This document shows, one piece after another, positions 52,912-63,719 of a stretch of DNA of 64,000 bases. This DNA comes from Deltaproteobacteria bacterium (GTDB taxonomy: Bacteria > Bdellovibrionota > Bdellovibrionia > Bdellovibrionales > JAMPXM01), in the NCBI GenBank assembly GCA_017302795.1, contig JAFLCB010000004.1, forward strand, positions 62,001 through 126,000, read 5' to 3'. Each line of letters starts with the position of its first letter. The stretch's first letter is position 1. The notes under the pieces are model-generated. The model did no database searches. It worked only from the letters and a program-made list of their open reading frames with translations, and was not told where the DNA came from. The position numbers and the translations under genes are program-made.

Positions 52912-53487
52912 TTATGGCCTGCTGGGGTCGAATTCACCCATATTGATAGCCGGAATGGCCTGATTGCCCAATTTTTCAAAGCTTTGCGTAAGTTTGAAAA
53001 GGGAAAGTTTGAATCGGATAAGCTCCTCTGCCTCTCCCAAGGCGTCTTGCGCTGCATTTGAAAGCTCTGTGCCCATCTCAAAATTATGGCCGCAGATCGA
53101 AAGAAGATAGGCCCGTGGAACGTTTTGATAGCACTTTTCAGCTAGACATAAAATCGCAAGAGGATCCAACGCATGGCTGGCGACACTATTGCGGGCAAAA
53201 CCGTTAACAGCCAAATCTCCGTTCTGCGGTGTTTTCAGTTCGACCCAATTTACAGGATTGGATTGTGATGCATGGGCATCTACCAAGATGACTACGTCAA
53301 AGTGACTCCATTGCTCAGCATTCTCGATTTGTAATTGGTAAACCCATTCGAGTTCGACTTGAACGGTTGATTGATTTCCCGCAAGTTTGGATGCTTCTAG
53401 CCGCTCGATTAGCATTGGCCCGAGGGCGTCGTCGCTTCGTAGCGGATTGCCAATTCCTTGGATCAAAACCTTAGCGGGTGAATTCAT
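52912..53487 (-). CDS. hoxW: Hydrogenase maturation protease (HoxW/HyaD family)
   Basis: 191 aa. The nickel-dependent endopeptidase fold starts GIGNPLRSDDALG with the first metal-binding acidic residue, continues with VILVDAHAS (second) and a late CGHNFEMG with the His ligand. It cuts the C-terminal peptide of HoxH once nickel is inserted, and overlaps the hoxH stop by 17 bases, so it is the last gene of the hox operon. A tail of about 25 residues beyond the core is unremarkable. Confidence 0.88.
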   Translation of the reverse strand: MNSPAKVLIQGIGNPLRSDDALGPMLIERLEASKLAGNQSTVQVELEWVYQLQIENAEQWSHFDVVILVDAHASQSNPVNWVELKTPQNGDLAVNGFARNSVASHALDPLAILCLAEKCYQNVPRAYLLSICGHNFEMGTELSNAAQDALGEAEELIRFKLSLFKLTQSFEKLGNQAIPAINMGEFDPSRP

Positions 53488-54976
53488 TGATCACTTCACC
53501 GGCTTGCTCGACTCTAATTTGCAGTGGCATTTTACCCAAAGCGTGAGTCGCACAACTGAGACAAGGGTCGTAGGCCCTAATCGCCGATTCTATCGCATTC
53601 ATAAGTCTGTCTTGGGAGCGAGCTGACTTTAAATCGGTTTCCGGCAGCAGTCGCCGCGCCACAGAGCCAACCGCCTCATTCATCGCAAGATTATTGTGCG
53701 TTGTCGAAACGATTAAATTGCACCGCTGAATTTCGCCCGATTCGGCGACATCGTAGTGATGAATCAATGTTCCACGAGGCGCTTCAATAAAACCGATGCC
53801 AGAACCTGTAAATTTACCGGATGCCTTTAGCTGAGAACCGGAAATCTCTGGATTGCTGAGCAGCTCTTGAATTCTCTCGGCACAAAAAAGCATTTCAATC
53901 AGCCGAGCCCAATGGAAGTTCAGTGTCGATTGCGAGTACCGTCCATTAACGGAACGAAACTCATCAAGTTCCTTTTGCGCCCGAGGTGTCGGAATCGAAT
54001 CGCAAACATTGACTCGCGCCAGCGGCCCGACCCGCATCGAGCCATTGGGAAAACCAAGTGACTTGAGAAACGGAAACTTAAGGTAGGTCCAATCAACGAC
54101 TCGCTCGCCATAGAGGCTGACATAATCATGATAGTCGACGTCGTCCAAAATTCGTTTGCCGGTGGGAGACACGCATCGCAATCGCCCGTGATAGAGATCC
54201 ATCTCCCCGTCTTCGCCAACAAGCGACAGCGAAAGCATGGGCTGATTCAAAAAAGAGTCCACCCAAGTTTTATTTGAAAAATGAAACTCCTTGTACACAC
54301 TCAAAACATCCACACACCAATCGATCACTTGGCTGACGCTAGGAACATCGACACCATCGTTGAAGTAAGAGATCTCAGCTTGGCCGAGGTTCTTGTGAAT
54401 GCCCCCCGGTACGGCCGAAATACCATGGATTTTCTTACCGGCTGTTGCGCGAATGATTTCTTGGCCAAACTTTCGAATTAGAATTCCCCGCTTTGCTAAC
54501 TCGGGATTGGCATTGACGATTCCCACGATGCTGCGGTCGGCGACTTCCACATCGCGTCCAAGCAGTAGGTCAGGAGCGGCCAGATAAAAGAAGTGAAGCG
54601 CATGTGACTGAAGGATCTGACCGTAATGCATCAGGCGACGCATCACTCTCGCCGTTTCGGGAATTGTCTGGTCGTTTAATCCTACGACTTCATCAATGGC
54701 CTTTGCCGCGCAAAGGTGATGGCTAACAGGGCAAATCCCACAAAGTCGTTGTACAATCACCGGGGCTTCCCAGTATGGACGACCCTGCACAAACCGTTCA
54801 AAGCCGCGAAACTCCACGATGTGCAGGCGGGCTTCGTCAAGCTCGCCTTTTTTGTTCAACATCAGCGTTACGCGTCCGTGTCCCTCAACCCGAGAAACCG
54901 GGTCGATCACAATCTCCCGACGATTCACACCACTATTCACGCTGCTATTCACACCACTATTCACACCGTTATTCAT
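53471..54976 (-). CDS. hoxH: [NiFe] hydrogenase large subunit, soluble NAD-linked type
   Basis: 501 aa. It carries the NiFe(CN)2CO site. L1 motif RLCGICPVSHH and L2 motif DPCLSCATH supply the four Cys ligands. After the L2 His come 24 residues (ALGKMPLQI...) that the protease should remove. YLAAPDLL, GISAVPGGIHKN and EAPRGTLIHHYD fit group 3 hydrogenases. Start: ATG at 54976, overlapping the hoxY stop, with GAGGAG 8 bases upstream. The first 16 codons are a 12-bp tandem repeat. Confidence 0.95.
   Translation of the reverse strand: MNNGVNSGVNSSVNSGVNRREIVIDPVSRVEGHGRVTLMLNKKGELDEARLHIVEFRGFERFVQGRPYWEAPVIVQRLCGICPVSHHLCAAKAIDEVVGLNDQTIPETARVMRRLMHYGQILQSHALHFFYLAAPDLLLGRDVEVADRSIVGIVNANPELAKRGILIRKFGQEIIRATAGKKIHGISAVPGGIHKNLGQAEISYFNDGVDVPSVSQVIDWCVDVLSVYKEFHFSNKTWVDSFLNQPMLSLSLVGEDGEMDLYHGRLRCVSPTGKRILDDVDYHDYVSLYGERVVDWTYLKFPFLKSLGFPNGSMRVGPLARVNVCDSIPTPRAQKELDEFRSVNGRYSQSTLNFHWARLIEMLFCAERIQELLSNPEISGSQLKASGKFTGSGIGFIEAPRGTLIHHYDVAESGEIQRCNLIVSTTHNNLAMNEAVGSVARRLLPETDLKSARSQDRLMNAIESAIRAYDPCLSCATHALGKMPLQIRVEQAGEVINEFTR
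54926..54973 (-). repeat. 12-bp tandem repeat at the hoxH start
   Basis: Four units of the type AATAGTGGTGTG follow the ATG directly and encode NNGV NSGV NSSV NSGV. Each unit is in frame and contains a GTG codon. Between units 1 to 4 only a few bases differ. Confidence 0.9.
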
Positions 54977-55532
54977 AAGTAATAGCTCCTCGGTTCAGCG
55001 AAAATGGGTGACCATAGATCTGACTTTTCAAGAGATCTCGGAAAAGTGGGCCCGGCGGAGGACATCCGGGAAGAAAGACGTCAATCTTCACTATTTCATG
55101 GCATGGATACACGCGGTCCAAAATTTTAGGTAAGTGCCGATTGTGCGGAATTACATTTGTGGGATTCGAAACAGTTGGTCCCGTGATGTAGGATTCATTC
55201 AGGCACTCGCTGAGCGGAACATCATTTCGAAGCGCCGGCAAGCCACCCATAATCGCACACTCGCCGACAGCGACCAAAATCTCGCAGTTTTTTCTAAATT
55301 CACGAAGCACATGCAGGTTTTCATCGTTGCAAACGCCTCCTTCAATGAGGCCAACATCAACCCGTTGATCGAAACTTTTATAGTCAGTGAATGGCGAGCG
55401 CAATATCTCGATGTGTGGCAACACCTCGACAAGGTCGAGATCCATGTCGAGAAACGACATATGACAACCGAAACATCCTGCCAACGAAACAGTCGCAACT
55501 TTGATTTTTCTCGGTGCCGGTTTCGCGTTCAC
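54969..55532 (-). CDS. hoxY: [NiFe] hydrogenase small subunit
   Basis: 187 aa, the short form typical of group 3 hydrogenases. It holds the proximal 4Fe-4S cluster next to the NiFe site: AGCFGCHMSFLD (two Cys), GECAIMGGLP and FLPGCPPPGPL give the other ligands. No twin-arginine signal is present, so the enzyme is cytoplasmic. It overlaps hoxU by 4 bases and hoxH by 8. Confidence 0.94.
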   Translation of the reverse strand: MNAKPAPRKIKVATVSLAGCFGCHMSFLDMDLDLVEVLPHIEILRSPFTDYKSFDQRVDVGLIEGGVCNDENLHVLREFRKNCEILVAVGECAIMGGLPALRNDVPLSECLNESYITGPTVSNPTNVIPHNRHLPKILDRVYPCHEIVKIDVFLPGCPPPGPLFRDLLKSQIYGHPFSLNRGAITYE

Positions 55533-56230
55533 TTAGAACTCCGACTATCGCTCTTGCGGGTACCAATGGGTCGATCAAAACCTTGCCCCTTAAATAAAAT
55601 CGCCCCAGTCGGACAAATCGCGACAGCTTCCTTTTTCTTATGCTTTGACATCTCAGCTTCAAGCTTCAAGTCCATTTCAACAACCGTCTTACGCCCCTTA
55701 CCCATGAAGCGAAAAACCTTTCTGCCTTCGTCATCAACGAAGAGGTCCGTGCAACGCTTGCAATGAATACAGCGATTGCGTTCGATCATTAGATCTTTAC
55801 CGCTATAATCTAAATCATAGTGCGAAAATTTGTAGGGAAACCGTGAATGCGTAATGCCCTGATCATAGGCGACACTTTGCAATTCGCAATCACCAGACTT
55901 CTCGCACCCGGGACAATAATGATTGCCCTCTGAAAAAAGCAGCTCGGTTACACCTTGGCGCAAATTCCGAAGGTCGCTTGCACCACATTCTATAACGTCA
56001 CCCTTCCCGATCTGAACCGTGCACCCCGCAACCTCGCGTCCATTCTTGCGCACAGTGCAGACCCGGCAGGTTCCCAAAGCGGGCTCAAGGCCGACACTCC
56101 AGCAAAGCGTCGGAATTTCAACTCCATTCATCCTGATGGCATCGATCAAATTTGTCCCCACTGGGGCAGATGCCACTTTTCCATCGATTAAAAACTCGAC
56201 TCTTTCGTGGCTCGAAATTTCTGGTTTCAT
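55529..56230 (-). CDS. hoxU: Hydrogenase diaphorase subunit HoxU
   Basis: 233 aa, related to the N-terminal part of NuoG. 2Fe-2S ferredoxin region: IPTLCWSVGLEPALGTCRVC with a later AGCTV Cys. His/Cys-ligated cluster: NHYCPGCEKSGDCEL. A further 4Fe-4S region: RCIHCKRCTDLF and AVAICPTGAI. It passes electrons between HoxHY and HoxF. Starts at an ATGA overlap with hoxF. Confidence 0.93.
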   Translation of the reverse strand: MKPEISSHERVEFLIDGKVASAPVGTNLIDAIRMNGVEIPTLCWSVGLEPALGTCRVCTVRKNGREVAGCTVQIGKGDVIECGASDLRNLRQGVTELLFSEGNHYCPGCEKSGDCELQSVAYDQGITHSRFPYKFSHYDLDYSGKDLMIERNRCIHCKRCTDLFVDDEGRKVFRFMGKGRKTVVEMDLKLEAEMSKHKKKEAVAICPTGAILFKGQGFDRPIGTRKSDSRSSK

Positions 56231-58014
56231 CTTGGTGCTCGCTTGACGGAAGGTCGATTTACTTTTTTAACAGCCAGGTTGTAATCTCGCGTCGCTGCCG
56301 CTTCGTCGAACGGGAAAATTTGAGAACTCGCGACACTTTCAAAAACTTTTTCAAACACCTTAGGAAACGCGATCATTGATGTTGTGAGAACATTTGGTGA
56401 CGTAGCACCCAGTCCACAGCGCGAAGTTTTTGAAATGATTGAAGACCAATCTCGAATTCGTTCACGGTCTCCTGGATGTGGTTTCCCAGCGCGAAGTCTT
56501 TTGATGGCGTCAAGCAAGACAACATTGCCCGCCCGACAAGGGGTGCAGTTGCCACACGACTCATTGACAAAGAATTCCATGAAATTTTCTAAAACGTGAA
56601 ACAGGTCTCGTCTTTTCGAAAAGACCATCAGTGATCCACCCGTCGCAAGATCCTCAAAGCTAATTTGTCGGCGGGTGTCGTTGGCACTCACGCACAAACC
56701 GCTAGGACCACCAACCTGGACGATCTCGGGTGATTTTGCCTGGCAGAGACGCAAGACTTCGCCAAGCGATACGCCCCAGGCAACCTCATAGATACCAGGC
56801 TTTGCAACATCACCAGAAATCGAAAGAAGTCGAGTGCCCTTGGACTTTTCAGTGCCCAGAACGCTGAACGCGCCGGCACCCTTAGCAAGAATCTGTGACG
56901 CAAGGACAAAAGTTTCAACGTTGTTAACGACGGTTGGACACCCACGATAGCCACGCTCCACAGGAAATGGTGGGCGGATGCGCGGTTCGCCCCGCCGACC
57001 CTCTAGCGACTCCAACAACGCTGTTTCCTCACCACAGACATAGGCACCGGCACCCAATTGAATTCGGATAGAAAACTTGCCCCATGACGGATGCCGGGCG
57101 ACTCGCTTCAAAACTTTCTGAAGATGCTTTTGCAGATAGGCATATTCCGCGCGCAAGTAGAGAATCCCTTCCTTCGCACCAATAGCCCGAGCCGCAATGG
57201 ACATCCCTTCAAACATCAAATCTGCCTGACTGGTCAGCAGTTCGCGATCTTTGAACGTTCCCGGCTCACCTTCGTCAGCGTTGCAAACAACATATCGATT
57301 CGGGCTTTGGAAGTTTGCACAAAGTTCCCACTTTGCACCCGTCGAATATCCCGCACCACCGCGCCCCCGAAGTCCACTCAGTTTTATTTCGCTGATGATC
57401 TCGAATGGGGACTGTTTTGCGGCCTTTGAAAGACCAGCCCCAAAAACTTCCTGCGCGCCGAAAAACGGGCCGAGCTTTCGCACACCGCTAACGACTGGCG
57501 AGGCAATTTTCCCTGCTTTTTTCCCAGAGCGGAGCTTGCGAATAATTCCGGGAACTGCACTGGCACGCAATTTTGGAAATGGAATTAGATCTATAAGCGC
57601 GGCAGGTCCTTGATCACTCATTCCGATACAAGAAGTTTCGAACAGGCCAAATTTCCCGTCTTTCGTCACTTCGCCGATGCGAATTCCAAGTTCGTTCTCG
57701 AACGCTTTCCGAACTGAAGGCATGCCAGCGATCTCACTTATGATCGACGTGTCGAGAAAAATCTGATGCTTTCCTGCGGGCTGCTCGTGAAAGAAATGAT
57801 AAAACGATAAGACCTCGCGAATATCAGCAGGAGAGATCCTAAGGTAGCGCGCAATCAACGCCCCTTCGCTTTCCGACACATAACCGGGCTTGGCTTGTAC
57901 GGCCCAGAGGATGTCGAGAAGACGACCGCGATCGCGTTCGTAACGCAAAACGATTGACTTGATCTGTGCCCGGCGCGTTGCTGTGATCACTGTTGTTTGA
58001 CTTCGGTTTTTCAC
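56227..58014 (-). CDS. hoxF: Hydrogenase diaphorase subunit HoxF (NAD/FMN binding)
   Basis: 595 aa from the GTG at 58014 (GAGAG upstream); the frame is open to 58095 but enters the divergent hypF. The N-terminal 165 residues are NuoE-like; the rest is NuoF-like with SGLRGRGGAGYSTGAKW and CNADEGEPGTFKDRELL (FMN), GAYVCGEETALLESLEG (NAD) and ESCGNCTPCRAGN plus a later CGLG (4Fe-4S). The NuoE-like part keeps one of four cluster cysteines (SCIGMSDQGPAAL), so it should hold no 2Fe-2S centre. First gene of hoxFUYHW. Confidence 0.95.
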   Translation of the reverse strand: MKNRSQTTVITATRRAQIKSIVLRYERDRGRLLDILWAVQAKPGYVSESEGALIARYLRISPADIREVLSFYHFFHEQPAGKHQIFLDTSIISEIAGMPSVRKAFENELGIRIGEVTKDGKFGLFETSCIGMSDQGPAALIDLIPFPKLRASAVPGIIRKLRSGKKAGKIASPVVSGVRKLGPFFGAQEVFGAGLSKAAKQSPFEIISEIKLSGLRGRGGAGYSTGAKWELCANFQSPNRYVVCNADEGEPGTFKDRELLTSQADLMFEGMSIAARAIGAKEGILYLRAEYAYLQKHLQKVLKRVARHPSWGKFSIRIQLGAGAYVCGEETALLESLEGRRGEPRIRPPFPVERGYRGCPTVVNNVETFVLASQILAKGAGAFSVLGTEKSKGTRLLSISGDVAKPGIYEVAWGVSLGEVLRLCQAKSPEIVQVGGPSGLCVSANDTRRQISFEDLATGGSLMVFSKRRDLFHVLENFMEFFVNESCGNCTPCRAGNVVLLDAIKRLRAGKPHPGDRERIRDWSSIISKTSRCGLGATSPNVLTTSMIAFPKVFEKVFESVASSQIFPFDEAAATRDYNLAVKKVNRPSVKRAPR

Positions 58015-58021
58015 GCTCTCT

Positions 58022-60427
58022 ATGATGCAGACAATGAGCACCAATACGCAACACCGATTTGATAATGAATCGGACTTTTCCGAATCTGCGTTCAACGTGG
58101 ACCTGTACGGAAGGGTGCAAGGTGTCGGAATGCGGCCTTGGCTATTTCGCCTTGCGCAATCGCACGAGTTGCTTGGCCAGATTTTTAATCATTTTGCCGG
58201 CACAAGTGCAGTACTTCAGGGGCGCGCGGCAGCGCTTCAGTCTTTCCAAGAAGAACTCACATCTGCTCTGTCCGGGCCGAGCGGCCACTTCCCTGCGCAA
58301 GTTGAAAAACTTGTTTTCAGCGAAATTGAATCTCGGAAATTTGATCGCCTCGAAATTTTGACTGCGCCACCTGTGACAACGAACCATTTTTTTTCTCAGC
58401 TCACGCTTTCTGCGCCACCTGACCTTGCAACCTGCTTTCAGTGTTGGCTTGATTTTTCTAATCCGAAAAGCCGGTTCTTCAATTACCCTTTTATTTCTTG
58501 CACCTCATGTGGTCCGAGATGGACCCTGCTTCGTAAACTTCCCTTTGAACGAGAACACACAAGCTACGCCGACTTTGAAATGTGCACGGATTGTGAAAAA
58601 GAATATTCCGATCCAAGCAGTCGACGATTCTTCTCACAAACGATGAGTTGTGAAACCTGCGGACCGAAAATCCAGCTACACTTGGACTCACAACAGACGT
58701 TGCGCGAGAATCCCCCAAAGAACACCCTATCTAAAGACGCTTTCAGAGAGTGCTCGACTGCTCTAAAAGCCGGAAAGATCGGCGTCATTAAGGGAATGGG
58801 CGGCTTTCAGCTGATAGGAAACGCACTTGACGAGCATGCCATAATGCGAATTCGGGCACTCAAACAAAGACCTGATCAAGCTCTCGCTGTGATGTTCAGG
58901 GACCTTGAAACGTTTCAATTCTATGGCGGCGGCGCCCAAATGTGGAATGAGCTTCGGTCACCTGAAGCCGCCATCCATTCAACTTCAGGTCTTGAATTTC
59001 CCACGCGTCACCTCATTGCTCCCGACTTAAATGAAGCCGGTGCGATGGCAGCAACGACGCCATTCCATTTCTTGCTGCAAAGCGAAGTACCGCTGCTAGT
59101 TGTGACTTCAGCGAATCAGAATGGATCGCCAATTCCTCGGACAATTCAGGAGATCGAGTTCCGCATTGGCAGCGAAATAGATTTTGTTTTAGATCACAAT
59201 CGCGAAATCACATTTCCTATCGACGACTCGGTCGTCAAAGACGGCCAGGTGCTACGCGCTGCTCGGGGAATTCTTCCGCGAGTGCACCCGAGAAAAGACA
59301 ATAAAGCGGAACCCAAAAAAGATGTTTTGGCTCTTGGAGCGGATCTCAAGAACTCGTCTGCTTTCACGCAGAACGGTATAACGACTGAGCTTCCCTACGC
59401 CGGAACGATATCGACACTCGAAGGACTGAGAACTTTGAAATCTCGATTGGAAAGACAACTGAAGCTGTTCGATTTTGTTCCCAAAGCCGTGCTGTGTGAT
59501 TTCCACCCCGAAACTCTCACCTGCCAATTGAATCTGTTTCCCGATTTAGTGCCCACTCGCGTCCCCCATCACCTGGCCCACGCGATGGCATTGCAAATGC
59601 CGGCGGACCTCGTTTTGTCATTTGATGGAACTGGATTTAATGGCGATATGGACGCAAACGGAGGCGAGGGATTTATCCAGCTTGAACGAAGACTGCAGTT
59701 TGAACCCACACCGCTTGTCGGCGGCACATCTGCAGTGCGAGAGCCGTGGAAATTTGCCACGAGCTCTCTCATTCAAGGCGGAATGGGTAGAACTGAAATC
59801 TTGAAGCTCTTCCCGAACGTCGATCCTGCTGCCTTTCAAACCGTTGTTCAGCTTTCTAAGTCTCACAACCAGGTTAAGACCACGTCAGTGGGACGCTGGT
59901 TTGATGCAGCCAGTGCCATTGTTTGCTTTGGCACTCGTAACCAAACCTATGAAGCTCAAGCCCCCATCCGACTTGAAAGTCTTGCCGCAAAATGCAGGAG
60001 TCCAATCGCTCCGCTCCTCTTTTCAACAAACGAATTTATCTCTCTTGGCAATCATCAATCATCCGAGGGGGCCACCGAGTTTATTCAAATTGCTGGGTCG
60101 AGGCTCCTCACCCGGCTCGCCGAGCTAAAGATTTCAAAACTGTATCAGGAAAGTGAGCTCGCGTTTTACGCACATGATATGCTTGCGCAAGTCGTGGCCA
60201 AAGCGTCCGCAAGGACACTTCAACAGTTCGGAGCATCTTCTGATTCTCGATTGGCTTCTTACGTTGGTGTCACCGGCGGCGTGTTTCAAAACCAAGTCTT
60301 TTTGAATTGTCTTGAGACACACATGAAGGAGCAGGGTCTAAACCTTCGGCCGACACAAGGTTTCCCTGTCAATGACCAAGCCATCGCGCTTGGACAAACA
60401 AGATGGTGGCATCAATGCACGAACTAA
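58022..60427 (+). CDS. hypF: Carbamoyltransferase HypF
   Basis: 801 aa. It makes the carbamoyl group that HypE turns into the cyanide ligands. Domains in order: acylphosphatase (GRVQGVGMRPWLFRLA, about 30-110), two zinc-finger-like Cys regions (CFQCWLDF, CTSCGPRW; CTDCEKEY, CETCGPKI), a YrdC-like domain (KGMGGFQLIGNA, SANQNGSPIPRT), and a Kae1-like C-terminal domain (HHLAHAMALQM, SFDGTGFNGD, VTGGVFQNQVFLN). ATGs at 58022, 58025 and 58034 are in frame. Its start lies 7 bases from that of the divergent hoxF. Confidence 0.95.
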   Translation: MMQTMSTNTQHRFDNESDFSESAFNVDLYGRVQGVGMRPWLFRLAQSHELLGQIFNHFAGTSAVLQGRAAALQSFQEELTSALSGPSGHFPAQVEKLVFSEIESRKFDRLEILTAPPVTTNHFFSQLTLSAPPDLATCFQCWLDFSNPKSRFFNYPFISCTSCGPRWTLLRKLPFEREHTSYADFEMCTDCEKEYSDPSSRRFFSQTMSCETCGPKIQLHLDSQQTLRENPPKNTLSKDAFRECSTALKAGKIGVIKGMGGFQLIGNALDEHAIMRIRALKQRPDQALAVMFRDLETFQFYGGGAQMWNELRSPEAAIHSTSGLEFPTRHLIAPDLNEAGAMAATTPFHFLLQSEVPLLVVTSANQNGSPIPRTIQEIEFRIGSEIDFVLDHNREITFPIDDSVVKDGQVLRAARGILPRVHPRKDNKAEPKKDVLALGADLKNSSAFTQNGITTELPYAGTISTLEGLRTLKSRLERQLKLFDFVPKAVLCDFHPETLTCQLNLFPDLVPTRVPHHLAHAMALQMPADLVLSFDGTGFNGDMDANGGEGFIQLERRLQFEPTPLVGGTSAVREPWKFATSSLIQGGMGRTEILKLFPNVDPAAFQTVVQLSKSHNQVKTTSVGRWFDAASAIVCFGTRNQTYEAQAPIRLESLAAKCRSPIAPLLFSTNEFISLGNHQSSEGATEFIQIAGSRLLTRLAELKISKLYQESELAFYAHDMLAQVVAKASARTLQQFGASSDSRLASYVGVTGGVFQNQVFLNCLETHMKEQGLNLRPTQGFPVNDQAIALGQTRWWHQCTN

Positions 60428-60666
60428 GTCTCGCTGTTGATCTTGTCGAACGCGCAAGCGAAATTGCGAAAAATAGTCGCGCGGCAAGAGTGACAAAGGT
60501 TAAGCTGTTGATTGGTCCAAACTCTGGAGTGGATCCTGCTGCTCTTCATTTCGCTTTTTCCGAAGCAACGCGGGATACAATGCTAGCGGATGCCGCATTG
60601 GAAATTTCTGCCGGAGTAGATCGAGAATTTCAATTTAAAAGCATGGAGGTCGAAGATGTGCATTGA
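60415..60666 (+). CDS. hypA: HypA-like nickel chaperone lacking the zinc domain
   Basis: 83 aa from the ATG at 60415; normal HypA has about 113. The nickel-binding N-terminus MHELSLA and the conserved LLIGPNSGVDPAALHFAFSE strand are intact, and the last part (DREFQFKSMEVED) matches the usual C-terminal strand. The zinc-finger domain with its two CxxC pairs, which should stand between LEIS and that strand, is absent without a frameshift. So this HypA would have no structural zinc and no Cys at all. It overlaps hypF by 13 and hypB by 11 bases. A gene in use or a shortened relic cannot be told by eye. Confidence 0.85.
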   Translation: MHELSLAVDLVERASEIAKNSRAARVTKVKLLIGPNSGVDPAALHFAFSEATRDTMLADAALEISAGVDREFQFKSMEVEDVH

Positions 60667-61402
60667 TTGTGGTTGTAGCGCCGCTGGCGTGTTTCGGTCC
60701 CAGAAAATGACGGGTCTTTCTAGCGCCACGTTTTCAGCAGAACCACTTCCCGTTTTAAAAACTCGGGAAATCGAAGTTGGAGAATCCGTTTTCAAAAAAA
60801 ATCAAGAAGCGGCCACGCTTAATCGCTCTCGATTTCAAGACCAAGGAATCAAAGTCTTCAATATCATGAGTTCACCAGGCTCCGGCAAAACCGAGCTGTT
60901 GAGCAAGGCTCTACCGGCGTTAGCCGCTAAACACAGCTTACTAATCCTTGTTGGCGATCAAGAAACTGACTTTGATGCTCAAAGGTTGAAATCTGCCGGT
61001 CTTGACAGCATTCAAATCAACACCCAATCAGCCTGTCATTTAGATGCCGAACGAGTGGACAAATCTCTAACCCAGTCTGCACTTCATGATAAGCAATGGC
61101 TGGTCATTGAAAATGTCGGCAATCTTGTGTGTCCCGCCGTATTTGACCTTGGCGAAGAATGCAAAGTTGCGGTCTTGTCGGTAACCGAAGGCGAAGAAAA
61201 GCCCCTGAAGTATCCGGTCCTTTTTAAAGAGGCCGATATCATTGCCGTTACGAAGTGTGATCTCCTTCCCTACCTCGATTTTGACATAGATCTTCTTACG
61301 GAAAATCTTCGGCGACAAAACCCCACCGCTCGTATCGTGTATTGCTCAGCAAAAAATGGCCAAGGTATTGCTGAATTCGCGAGTGCCATGGAGGCTGTCT
61401 GA
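60656..61402 (+). CDS. hypB: Nickel-inserting GTPase HypB
   Basis: 248 aa. Starts with the N-terminal high-affinity nickel motif MCIDCGCS. G domain: P-loop NIMSSPGSGKTELL, VGDQETDFDAQR, the metal-linked ACHLDA, VIENVGNLVCPAVFDLGE (with the second metal Cys) and VTKCDLL (for NKxD). No long His-rich region, so no nickel storage function. It acts with HypA in nickel delivery to HoxH. Confidence 0.94.
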   Translation: MCIDCGCSAAGVFRSQKMTGLSSATFSAEPLPVLKTREIEVGESVFKKNQEAATLNRSRFQDQGIKVFNIMSSPGSGKTELLSKALPALAAKHSLLILVGDQETDFDAQRLKSAGLDSIQINTQSACHLDAERVDKSLTQSALHDKQWLVIENVGNLVCPAVFDLGEECKVAVLSVTEGEEKPLKYPVLFKEADIIAVTKCDLLPYLDFDIDLLTENLRRQNPTARIVYCSAKNGQGIAEFASAMEAV

Positions 61403-61623
61403 TGTGCCACGCAGTCCCAGTGAAGATAGTTGAACGAGTAGGTTCTGATGGCGTCGGTGAACGCGATGGTCTGATTTTGGACATTGATCTCAGCCTAATT
61501 CCAGATGCAGCTCCTGGCGATTTGGTCATTGTCCATGTCGGAATTGCTCTTGCGAAAATCGATCAAACCGAGGCCGATGAAATCCTCAAACTCCGAGAGG
61601 CCATTCTTGGAACTTCAATCTGA
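61402..61623 (+). CDS. hypC: HypC/HupF-family chaperone
   Basis: 73 aa. MCHAVPVKIVERV carries the essential N-terminal Cys2, and PGDLVIVHVGIALAKIDQTEA is the C-terminal signature. It carries the Fe(CN)2CO unit from HypD to HoxH. It begins at a 1-base overlap with the hypB stop. Confidence 0.93.
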   Translation: MCHAVPVKIVERVGSDGVGERDGLILDIDLSLIPDAAPGDLVIVHVGIALAKIDQTEADEILKLREAILGTSI

Positions 61624-62689
61624 TCGCCAAAACGACATCCGACTTTTGAACACTCTTGCTGAACGCGTCGGCGAAGTTAGAATTATGGAGTTTTGCGGCG
61701 GCCATACACATGCACTGGTTCGCACGGGACTTCTAAGCCTCTTGCCAAAATCCTTAAAGATGATTCACGGGCCAGGGTGCCCAGTTTGCGTCTTACCTCC
61801 CAACCACCTTCAGGCCGTCATTGATTTATTGAACGCAAATCCTCGAATGACAGCTCTCGTCTATGGGGATGTGTTGCGGATTCCCACTCTTGGTGGCGAT
61901 AGCCTTCTTCAAGCACGTGGCCGAGGTCTTTCGATCAAAATGATTTATTCCCCGCTTGAGATCTTTAAACTCGCAGAAGCTCAACCCGATCGAGAGTTCT
62001 TGTTCCTTGCTATAGGATTTGAGACCACTGCTCCAGGAACAGCAATCCTGCTTAAGAAGCTTCGCGAAAAAATGTTGAAAAACGTTTCAGTCCTTTGCTT
62101 ACACGTTTTGACTCCACCTGCCGTTCACGCTGTCATGCACGGACTCGATGAAGGCCTTCGTCCGCAGGCACTGATTGGACCCGGACATGTTTCGCTTGTG
62201 ACCGGGACCGAGCTCTACCCAGCAATTGCAAAACAGTATTCCGTACCAGTCGTCATTAGTGGCTTTGAAGGAAATGACCTCATTCAATCGATTTCACTTT
62301 GCCTGCATTCACTTGTGAACCGAAAATTCGAAGTCATCAACCAATACACGCGGGCACTCAAAAATTCTCAACAAGAACCACATCGTATGCTGATGAAAGA
62401 AGTCTTCCAAACTCGCAAGTCTTTTTCATGGAGAGGCCTCGGGGATGTGCCCGATTCAGCGCTGATGCTGCAGGACGATTGGGCTCCGTGGGATGCAGAG
62501 AGAAAGTACTCTCTTCAGTACCGGGAGGTTCCCGAACATCCCGCCTGCCAATGTTCAGAAATTCTTCGAGCGCGAAAATCTCCTAAAGACTGTCGACTGT
62601 TTGGCAAGGCCTGCACGCCTAGCCGTCCGTTAGGAGCTTGTATGGTTTCATCTGAAGGAGCTTGCAGTGCCTACTATCAAGCACAATGA
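61577..62689 (+). CDS. hypD: HypD, iron-cofactor assembly scaffold
   Basis: 370 aa from the ATG at 61577, overlapping hypC by 47 bases. A TTG at 61607 (GAGAGG 6 bases upstream) would give 360 aa and is equally possible. MEFCGGHTHALVR, HGPGCPVCVLP and AIGFETTAPGTA are the three HypD motifs around the active Cys residues; the last 55 residues hold the 4Fe-4S ligands (EHPACQCSEIL, DCRLFGKACTPSRPLGACM). It accepts cyanide groups from HypE on iron, together with HypC. Confidence 0.94.
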   Translation: MKSSNSERPFLELQSDRQNDIRLLNTLAERVGEVRIMEFCGGHTHALVRTGLLSLLPKSLKMIHGPGCPVCVLPPNHLQAVIDLLNANPRMTALVYGDVLRIPTLGGDSLLQARGRGLSIKMIYSPLEIFKLAEAQPDREFLFLAIGFETTAPGTAILLKKLREKMLKNVSVLCLHVLTPPAVHAVMHGLDEGLRPQALIGPGHVSLVTGTELYPAIAKQYSVPVVISGFEGNDLIQSISLCLHSLVNRKFEVINQYTRALKNSQQEPHRMLMKEVFQTRKSFSWRGLGDVPDSALMLQDDWAPWDAERKYSLQYREVPEHPACQCSEILRARKSPKDCRLFGKACTPSRPLGACMVSSEGACSAYYQAQ

Positions 62690-63719
62690 ACAGCGACTCA
62701 ATATGAACGGGTCAATCACAACAGCCCATGGGACCGGTGGTCCCACCAGCCATCAGCTTATCGACGAGCTTTTCAAAAAACACCTCGCCGGAAAAAATCT
62801 ATCCCCTCACGATGCCGCCGCATTCTCCGCAAAAGGCGGAAATGTGATTGTGACCACGGACACTCACGTCGTTGATCCGATTATTTTTCCTGGTGGAGAC
62901 ATCGGCCGACTTTCTATCACAGGAGTGGTCAATGATCTTTTAACTCGAGCCGGACAAGCCAAATATATAAGCCTCGGCTTTATTCTGGAAGAGGGTCTTG
63001 AACTCCGAACACTTGAATTCGTCCTCACGAGCATGGGTAAAACCATGCGCGAATGCGGTATCGAACTTCTTTGCGCGGATACCAAAGTGATCGGAGGGCG
63101 CGGCAAAACGCCTGGGATGATGATATCAAGTACACTCTTTGGCGAACCCCTTGCGTCCGGTATTTCAATGACCGGCCCACAGCCCATGGATCAAGTCATT
63201 GTCACCGGACCAGTCGGCTCGCACGGGCTAGCGATCCTTCAGGCACGGGAAGGTCTTCCATTTTCAACGACGATTCATTCAGATTGCGCACCGCTAGTCG
63301 ACTTGATCGCTCCTATTTTGCTCGAATCAAATTCGATTCATTATATGCGAGACCCAACTCGTGGCGGAGTTACCGGAGTCCTTCACGAGCTCGCACGGCA
63401 ATTCAGTCTCAGTTTCGAACTTTTCGAGTCAGGAAATGACGGTGTAGCTCCTACGATTCCTCACGTTCGCGCAGGACTAGAAATTCTTGGATTAGATCCT
63501 CTCGAGGTTGCCAACGAGGGCGTCATGCTGATCTTCGCTTCCCAAGATGATGCCGGGCAATTGGTGTCTCGACTGCAACAGCACCCTCTCGGAAGGCAAG
63601 CCCGCATTATTGGCTCCGTTAAGCCAAAGGGTGAATTTCCGCTCACTCTTAAGACAGCACTTGGCGGTCACCGCCTCGCTCCGTGGCCAGAGGGATTAAA
63701 CCTCCCCAGAATTTGCTGA
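62667..63719 (+). CDS. hypE: HypE, carbamoyl dehydratase
   Basis: 350 aa. The GTG at 62667 has GGAG 6 bases upstream and overlaps hypD; an ATG at 62703 starts nearer the conserved region. AHGTGGPTSHQLIDELF, TTDTHVVDPIIFPGGDIG and MRDPTRGGVTGVLHEL fit the AIR-synthase-like ATP-binding fold. The C-terminus is LPRIC, whose final Cys takes the carbamoyl group from HypF to form thiocyanate. Last gene of hypFABCDE. Confidence 0.95.
   Translation: MPTIKHNEQRLNMNGSITTAHGTGGPTSHQLIDELFKKHLAGKNLSPHDAAAFSAKGGNVIVTTDTHVVDPIIFPGGDIGRLSITGVVNDLLTRAGQAKYISLGFILEEGLELRTLEFVLTSMGKTMRECGIELLCADTKVIGGRGKTPGMMISSTLFGEPLASGISMTGPQPMDQVIVTGPVGSHGLAILQAREGLPFSTTIHSDCAPLVDLIAPILLESNSIHYMRDPTRGGVTGVLHELARQFSLSFELFESGNDGVAPTIPHVRAGLEILGLDPLEVANEGVMLIFASQDDAGQLVSRLQQHPLGRQARIIGSVKPKGEFPLTLKTALGGHRLAPWPEGLNLPRIC

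Follow-up and report, generated by a model that had tools for sequence, protein, structure and literature searches.

A HypA without its zinc domain at a Hox hydrogenase locus, and recurrence of the zinc-free form in several bacterial phyla

Introduction

The zinc site of Helicobacter pylori HypA senses pH and nickel. The nickel ligands of this protein are M1, H2, E3 and D40, and point mutations of its zinc-binding cysteines bring hydrogenase activity down to 9-60% (PMC5557546). The zinc site thus matters in that species, and the cysteine mutants have led to the view that it is critical for maturation (PMC5557546). Canonical HypA receives nickel from HypB and docks the hydrogenase large subunit, the N-terminal tail of which meets the nickel site (PMC7055735). 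In the HypAB complex of Thermococcus kodakarensis, His98 of HypA serves as an extra nickel ligand, and a 2019 review attributes a nickel site and a zinc site to all HypA proteins (PMC7055735). Group 3b hydrogenase clusters without hypB have been noted in Nitrosococcus oceani AFC132 and other organisms, with UreG proposed as a substitute; a missing HypA zinc site is not mentioned there (PMC7285500). A search of open-licence papers returned none that describes a zinc-free or short HypA, an absence that is weak evidence.

Here, a hypA gene encoding a protein of 83 aa was analysed in its hydrogenase locus. The gene lies in a stretch of 64,000 nucleotides from a Deltaproteobacteria bacterium (contig JAFLCB010000004.1, positions 62,001 to 126,000), which is referred to as the window.

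Results

The Hox/Hyp locus is complete

The locus is laid out divergently, hoxWHYU-EF <> hypF-A-B-C-D-E, the hox genes being located upstream on the opposite strand. On the plus strand, hypF (58022..60427, provisional start) carries all its domains (PF07503, PF01300, PF17788, PF22521) and scores 447.8 bits against TIGR00143, slightly below cut-off. It is followed by hypA (60415..60666), which overlaps hypF by 13 bases and the downstream hypB by 11 bases. Scores above cut-off were obtained for hypB (60656..61402; TIGR00073, 245 bits, cut-off 121), hypC (61402..61623; TIGR00074, PF01455), hypD (61505..62689, true start probably further downstream; TIGR00075, 380 bits) and hypE (62667..63719, provisional start; TIGR02124, 316.7 bits). 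On the minus strand, hoxEF (56227..58095, provisional start) is one ORF of 622 aa for a fused HoxE-HoxF-like diaphorase subunit, with the NuoE and NuoF families matching side by side. The other minus-strand genes are hoxU (55529..56230; best match NF005745 HoxU), the small subunit gene hoxY (54969..55532; VhuG/HydD-type families), hoxH (53471..54976) and a hoxW-like hydrogenase maturation protease gene (52912..53487; TIGR00072, 77.5 bits, above cut-off). HoxH, the presumed nickel client, has the NAD-reducing hydrogenase 5xf9 as its best solved relative (E 2.7e-153); its nickel-ligand motifs RLCGICPVSHH and DPCLSCATH are intact and the C-terminal maturation peptide is present.

Since HypF, HypB, HypC, HypD and HypE could all be identified, together with the Hox subunits and the maturation protease, the locus is complete and not decaying. 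An earlier note on this DNA had stated that the rest of the hydrogenase set is intact and that HypB has a nickel motif of its own, MCIDCGC. The profile matches to the Hox, Hyp and protease genes bear out the former, and reading of the motif bears out the latter: HypB begins with MCIDCGC and carries the G-domain metal motif (ACHLDA, NLVCPA).

The window HypA lacks exactly the zinc domain

The translation of window:60415-60666:+ is MHELSLAVDLVERASEIAKNSRAARVTKVKLLIGPNSGVDPAALHFAFSEATRDTMLADAALEISAGVDREFQFKSMEVEDVH, a protein of 83 aa with no cysteine. It matches Pfam HypA (PF01155) over profile positions 1-65 of 112 only, at 56.7 bits (cut-off 28.9), and reaches 52.3 against the NCBI full-length equivalog TIGR00100, below the cut-off of 88.1. 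The MHE nickel start is kept, as are the core (IGPNSGVDPAALHFAF) and the last strand (REFQFKSMEVED). In alignment with full-length relatives, the domain with the CxxC...CxxC motifs is exactly the gap, from '..ALEI' to 'REFQFKSMEVED'; the counterpart of this junction in one full-length HypA (L017) reads 'GREFRVLSLEVED'. The junction itself, the site of the absent zinc domain, comprises residues 65-69 (60607..60621, plus strand). The predicted nickel-binding start Met1-His2-Glu3 (60415..60423, plus strand) is invariant in the alignments A1 and A2, these residues being ligands in H. pylori HypA (PMC5557546). Asp40 (60532..60534, plus strand) corresponds to the fourth nickel-ligand position of the H. 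pylori protein. These results confirm that the 83-aa ORF is a HypA that has lost its zinc-binding half. The in-frame lack of the zinc finger, as well as the retention of the MHE start, core region and final strand, had been proposed in the earlier note, and both hold on translation, profile match and alignment.

The protein shares with the HypAs of H. pylori and T. kodakarensis the MHE start and the hyp operon context, and with that of H. pylori also Asp40. Unlike both, it is without about 30-35 residues bearing the two CxxC pairs and without a counterpart of T. kodakarensis His98, which falls within the missing segment. The HypAs of G058 (L228), G236 (L227) and 'Deltaproteobacteria' M0603 (L017) belong to the same kind of Hox/Hyp locus, with identical gene order in the case of G058, and are 35-54% identical to the window protein; unlike it, they are full length (113-114 aa) with the zinc finger present. 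The window protein thus belongs to the HypA/HybF family (PF01155, TIGR00100) by its N-terminal MHE motif with a Pfam score over cut-off, by the predicted nickel-binding alpha/beta fold, and by its location in a hyp operon, next to hypB and beside a [NiFe]-hydrogenase. It lacks the zinc domain with its two CxxC motifs and was therefore filed as a zinc-free variant and not as canonical HypA.

The nickel domain is predicted to be whole

A single-chain AlphaFold2 model was computed from an alignment of the window HypA with 16 relatives. The model (pLDDT 91.9, pTM 0.79) contains the elements H3-20, E23-33, H41-52, E61-66 and E73-81, the junction being placed in the loop between strands 61-66 and 73-81. 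Superposition by VIA-align on HypA 3a43_B covered 83 of 83 residues (Z 15.1, 1.3 A). The match extends over chain residues 1-137, and therefore the last strand of the model corresponds to the one located after the zinc domain in full-length HypA. The values were Z 14.8 for H. pylori 6g81 and Z 14.6 for the HypAB-Ni complex 5aun, against 7.2 for the next unrelated fold; among the known HypAs of H. pylori (6g81, 2kdx) and T. kodakarensis (3a43, 5aun, 5yxy) the predicted fold matched at Z 15.1-12.2 over 81-83 residues. A phmmer search with just the 83-aa sequence as query found no solved structure; a profile search did find one. The model thus predicts a whole nickel domain with a short loop in place of the zinc domain.

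The short form is the only HypA of its genome and is not an artefact

The genome assembly (4.23 Mb, 39 contigs) is 98.61% complete, and a PF01155 profile search of it found no second HypA. The other matches are weak and cover the profile partially, several of them the zinc-ribbon part alone, in long unrelated frames. Another HypA or HybF elsewhere in the genome, which the earlier note had offered as an alternative, is therefore excluded within this assembly. Other short HypAs adjoining Hox clusters were found, as the same note had proposed to look for. One genome of the same family (G009), one of the same order (G116) and one of the same phylum (G164) each have one HypA of 82 aa with the junction as in the window. 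The divergent hox <> hypF-A-B-C-D-E arrangement is repeated in G116 and G164, and in G009, on a short contig, the order hypF-A-B-C-D is visible. In G116, the nearest relative, the HypB G domain also carries a low-complexity Gly/Ala insertion (L046 1742-2719).

Since the assembly is a 39-contig draft, an assembly or sequencing artefact could have collapsed or deleted the zinc-finger bases. Against this, the 82-aa form recurs with the same junction in three genomes of different genera, the window hypA shows no frameshift, and two other loci closely related to this one contain the zinc finger, which hence assembles normally. The independent genomes rule out a collapse, and an artefact of either kind has next to no probability. 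Equally far-fetched is a full-length second HypA working from the unassembled 1-2% of the genome. Completeness falls short of 100%, but the zinc-free form is the only HypA in G009, G116, G164, G252 and most of the Gemmatimonadota genomes that carry one.

Zinc-free HypAs recur in several phyla

For a census, PF01155 matches at E<=1e-5 were collected and the ORFs ending before the zinc domain were then read. Zinc-free HypAs account for 13 of 32 HypA loci sampled in the phylum of the window, 31/58 in Gemmatimonadota, 13/61 in Myxococcota, 11/48 in Planctomycetota and, excluding a contig-end case, 1/102 in Pseudomonadota. The excluded candidate (G547) was dropped because the contig ends inside the gene. 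Except for the window's own phylum, the phylum names follow the record titles of the seed loci. The Planctomycetota count includes a 128-aa HypA (L291, G1117) in which a His/Cys-containing stretch (EHKHERVETCHDHSEE...) replaces the finger at its position. In the phylum to which the archaeon Borrarchaeum belongs, about 90 matches included no zinc-free HypA; all of them reach into or through the zinc part except for one fragment of 58 aa and two pieces of the zinc part. The reverse situation, a CxxC zinc part kept with the MHE start absent, was seen in Myxococcota, in L225 and L226 (G1059, G1050) as well as in several more matches, and these proteins have no hyp genes nearby. Plasmid-borne zinc-free HypAs occur in Sphingopyxis/Novosphingobium, Azospirillum and Paraburkholderia/Pandoraea. 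Those that RefSeq already lists under the name HypA (for example Sphingopyxis alaskensis WP_011536540.1 and Azospirillum WP_051658428.1, 80 aa each) have the MHE start and the same two-strand junction as the window protein; they differ in lineage and hydrogenase, and their annotation is silent on the missing domain.

Several subtypes could be distinguished. Type A comprises Hox loci like that of the window, with HypB. Type B belongs to group 3b-like loci (diaphorase-small-large-protease-hypA-hypF-hypC-D-E) and has a PEHFREHF-type motif. Ten of the 12 type B genomes gave no HypB match and two only matches below cut-off (L036, L037, L206, L209, L211-L215, L218-L220), so that nickel insertion there proceeds without the GTPase or via another one. 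The short HypA of these clusters (hypA-F-C-D-E) resembles the window protein in being zinc-free and beside a [NiFe]-hydrogenase, and differs from it in its mostly HypB-less genomes and in the His-rich 'PEHFREHF' instead of Asp40. The window HypA is not of type B, because HypB adjoins it, the hydrogenase is a Hox (NAD-reducing) enzyme and the His-rich motif is absent. Type C (84 aa, with HypB) is from small genomes of the window's own phylum. Further forms with HypB are those of Gemmatimonadota (81-97 aa, beside a group-1-type enzyme whose closest relative of solved structure is 3myr), Myxococcota (80-89 aa, beside 3b or Hox enzymes) and sphingomonads (80 aa), and the Planctomycetota forms (81-87 aa) stand beside 3b or Hox-like large subunits. 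One Gemmatimonadota genome (G519; L188, L174) encodes a pair of zinc-free HypAs, and in one of the pair the start is VHK rather than MHE.

The zinc domain changed status independently several times

Mapped onto a tree of HypD+HypE from 77 loci, the zinc-free/full-length label requires 8 changes, and branches with strong support impose 6 of these; the count comes from a quick method on a tree with some long branches. A single zinc-free clade is rejected on the same proteins (p 5.5e-78). On a HoxH tree of 15 loci, the label takes 3 changes in >=90% of bootstrap trees, and one clade is again rejected (p 9.1e-36). The zinc-free 81-aa HypA of G252 and the full-length 114-aa HypA of G236 belong to sister loci whose HoxH proteins are 78% identical, and the neighbours of the window clade are full-length loci, including that of G058, which shares its gene order. 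Thus, zinc-domain status has changed independently several times, in bacteria whose hydrogenase systems are apparently complete. The trees alone cannot tell the direction; loss is the simpler reading than gain, since full-length HypA greatly predominates and all archaeal cases are of this form. The idea of a local oddity, implied in the earlier note, gives way to a recurrent form of the family.

The nickel site is conserved and zinc-free hypA genes are under selection

Of 61 zinc-free HypAs, 60 retain His2 and all 61 retain Glu3; the first residue is Met or Val. Position 40 is Asp in 5/5 type A proteins; as a universal ligand it was rejected, since the position varies in full-length and zinc-free HypA alike. 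Among the close zinc-free hypA pairs with measurable dS, dN/dS is 0.015-0.29 in seven of eight and 0.54 in the other, values that resemble those of the neighbouring hypB. Close pairs of zinc-free HypAs are thus under purifying selection. In the window's own clade the synonymous sites are saturated, so the case for selection there rests on residue conservation.

These data bear on whether the window HypA is vestigial, nickel being supplied by HypB alone, by SlyD or as ambient nickel. High nickel can bypass HypA and HypB in mutants (PMC12134894), the window HypB keeps both metal motifs, and the full-length equivalog model no longer recognises the window protein. A decaying gene would however not be expected to keep the MHE start, the core fold and the exact domain excision across genera and phyla, nor the low dN/dS of seven of the eight close pairs, and in the HypB-less genomes the short HypA is no spare part of HypB. 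A vestigial HypA is accordingly unlikely.

The function of the zinc domain may alternatively have moved to a protein acting in trans, either a separate zinc-ribbon protein or a feature of HypB. Zinc-ribbon proteins are encoded elsewhere in the genome, but the hyp/hox locus has no zinc-ribbon gene, and the zinc-free loci showed neither an additional gene nor a HypB motif in common; such a transfer appears quite improbable. The CH motif of the HypB G domain is kept in 46/46 HypB-carrying zinc-free loci, and the window clade has retained the MCxxCGC motif, which many other zinc-free loci lack. An N-terminal CxxCGC or His-rich stretch of HypB was also considered as a general compensation and showed no consistent pattern across zinc-free loci, in a comparison that relied on a crude automatic choice of HypB start codons.

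Discussion

The window gene is most readily understood as a working minimal nickel chaperone, a HypA cut to its nickel-binding domain and partnered by HypB, a reading to which we assign a probability of about 0.8. Of the possibilities raised in the earlier note, a working zinc-free HypA is strongly favoured, because the form is kept in other genera, close pairs are under purifying selection and it is the sole HypA of many genomes. Delivery by HypB alone is unlikely, because the MHE site is conserved and one subtype has no HypB at all.

We infer that the protein is made, binds nickel and docks on HypB and HoxH, zinc being dispensable. HypB, with its own metal sites, would supply or gate nickel, the MHE start and Asp40 of HypA would take it over, and HypA would pass it to the immature HoxH large subunit. 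The transfer would proceed without a ligand or sensor from the zinc domain. If the protein works in this way, the zinc domain would in these lineages count as an accessory or regulatory module, outside the core transfer step. The HypB-less subtype suggests that the nickel domain can act even alone.

The zinc-free HypA emerges as a recurrent and so far unrecognised form of the family; it is less unique than the earlier note supposed and represents a repeated natural deletion. In automatic annotation, the full-length equivalog model misses or under-scores such proteins. By its inferred function, the zinc-free HypA would be a very small nickel chaperone. For the family as a whole, the zinc site of HypA probably lies outside the core mechanism of nickel insertion, as an optional module that has disappeared independently on at least several occasions. 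The remaining nickel domain of 80-90 residues would then be enough for enzymes of the Hox, group 1 and group 3b types, and for those of group 3b it would be enough even where HypB is missing. The natural zinc-free HypAs, including cases in which closely similar hydrogenases are accompanied by either form of HypA, allow a direct test of what the zinc domain does.
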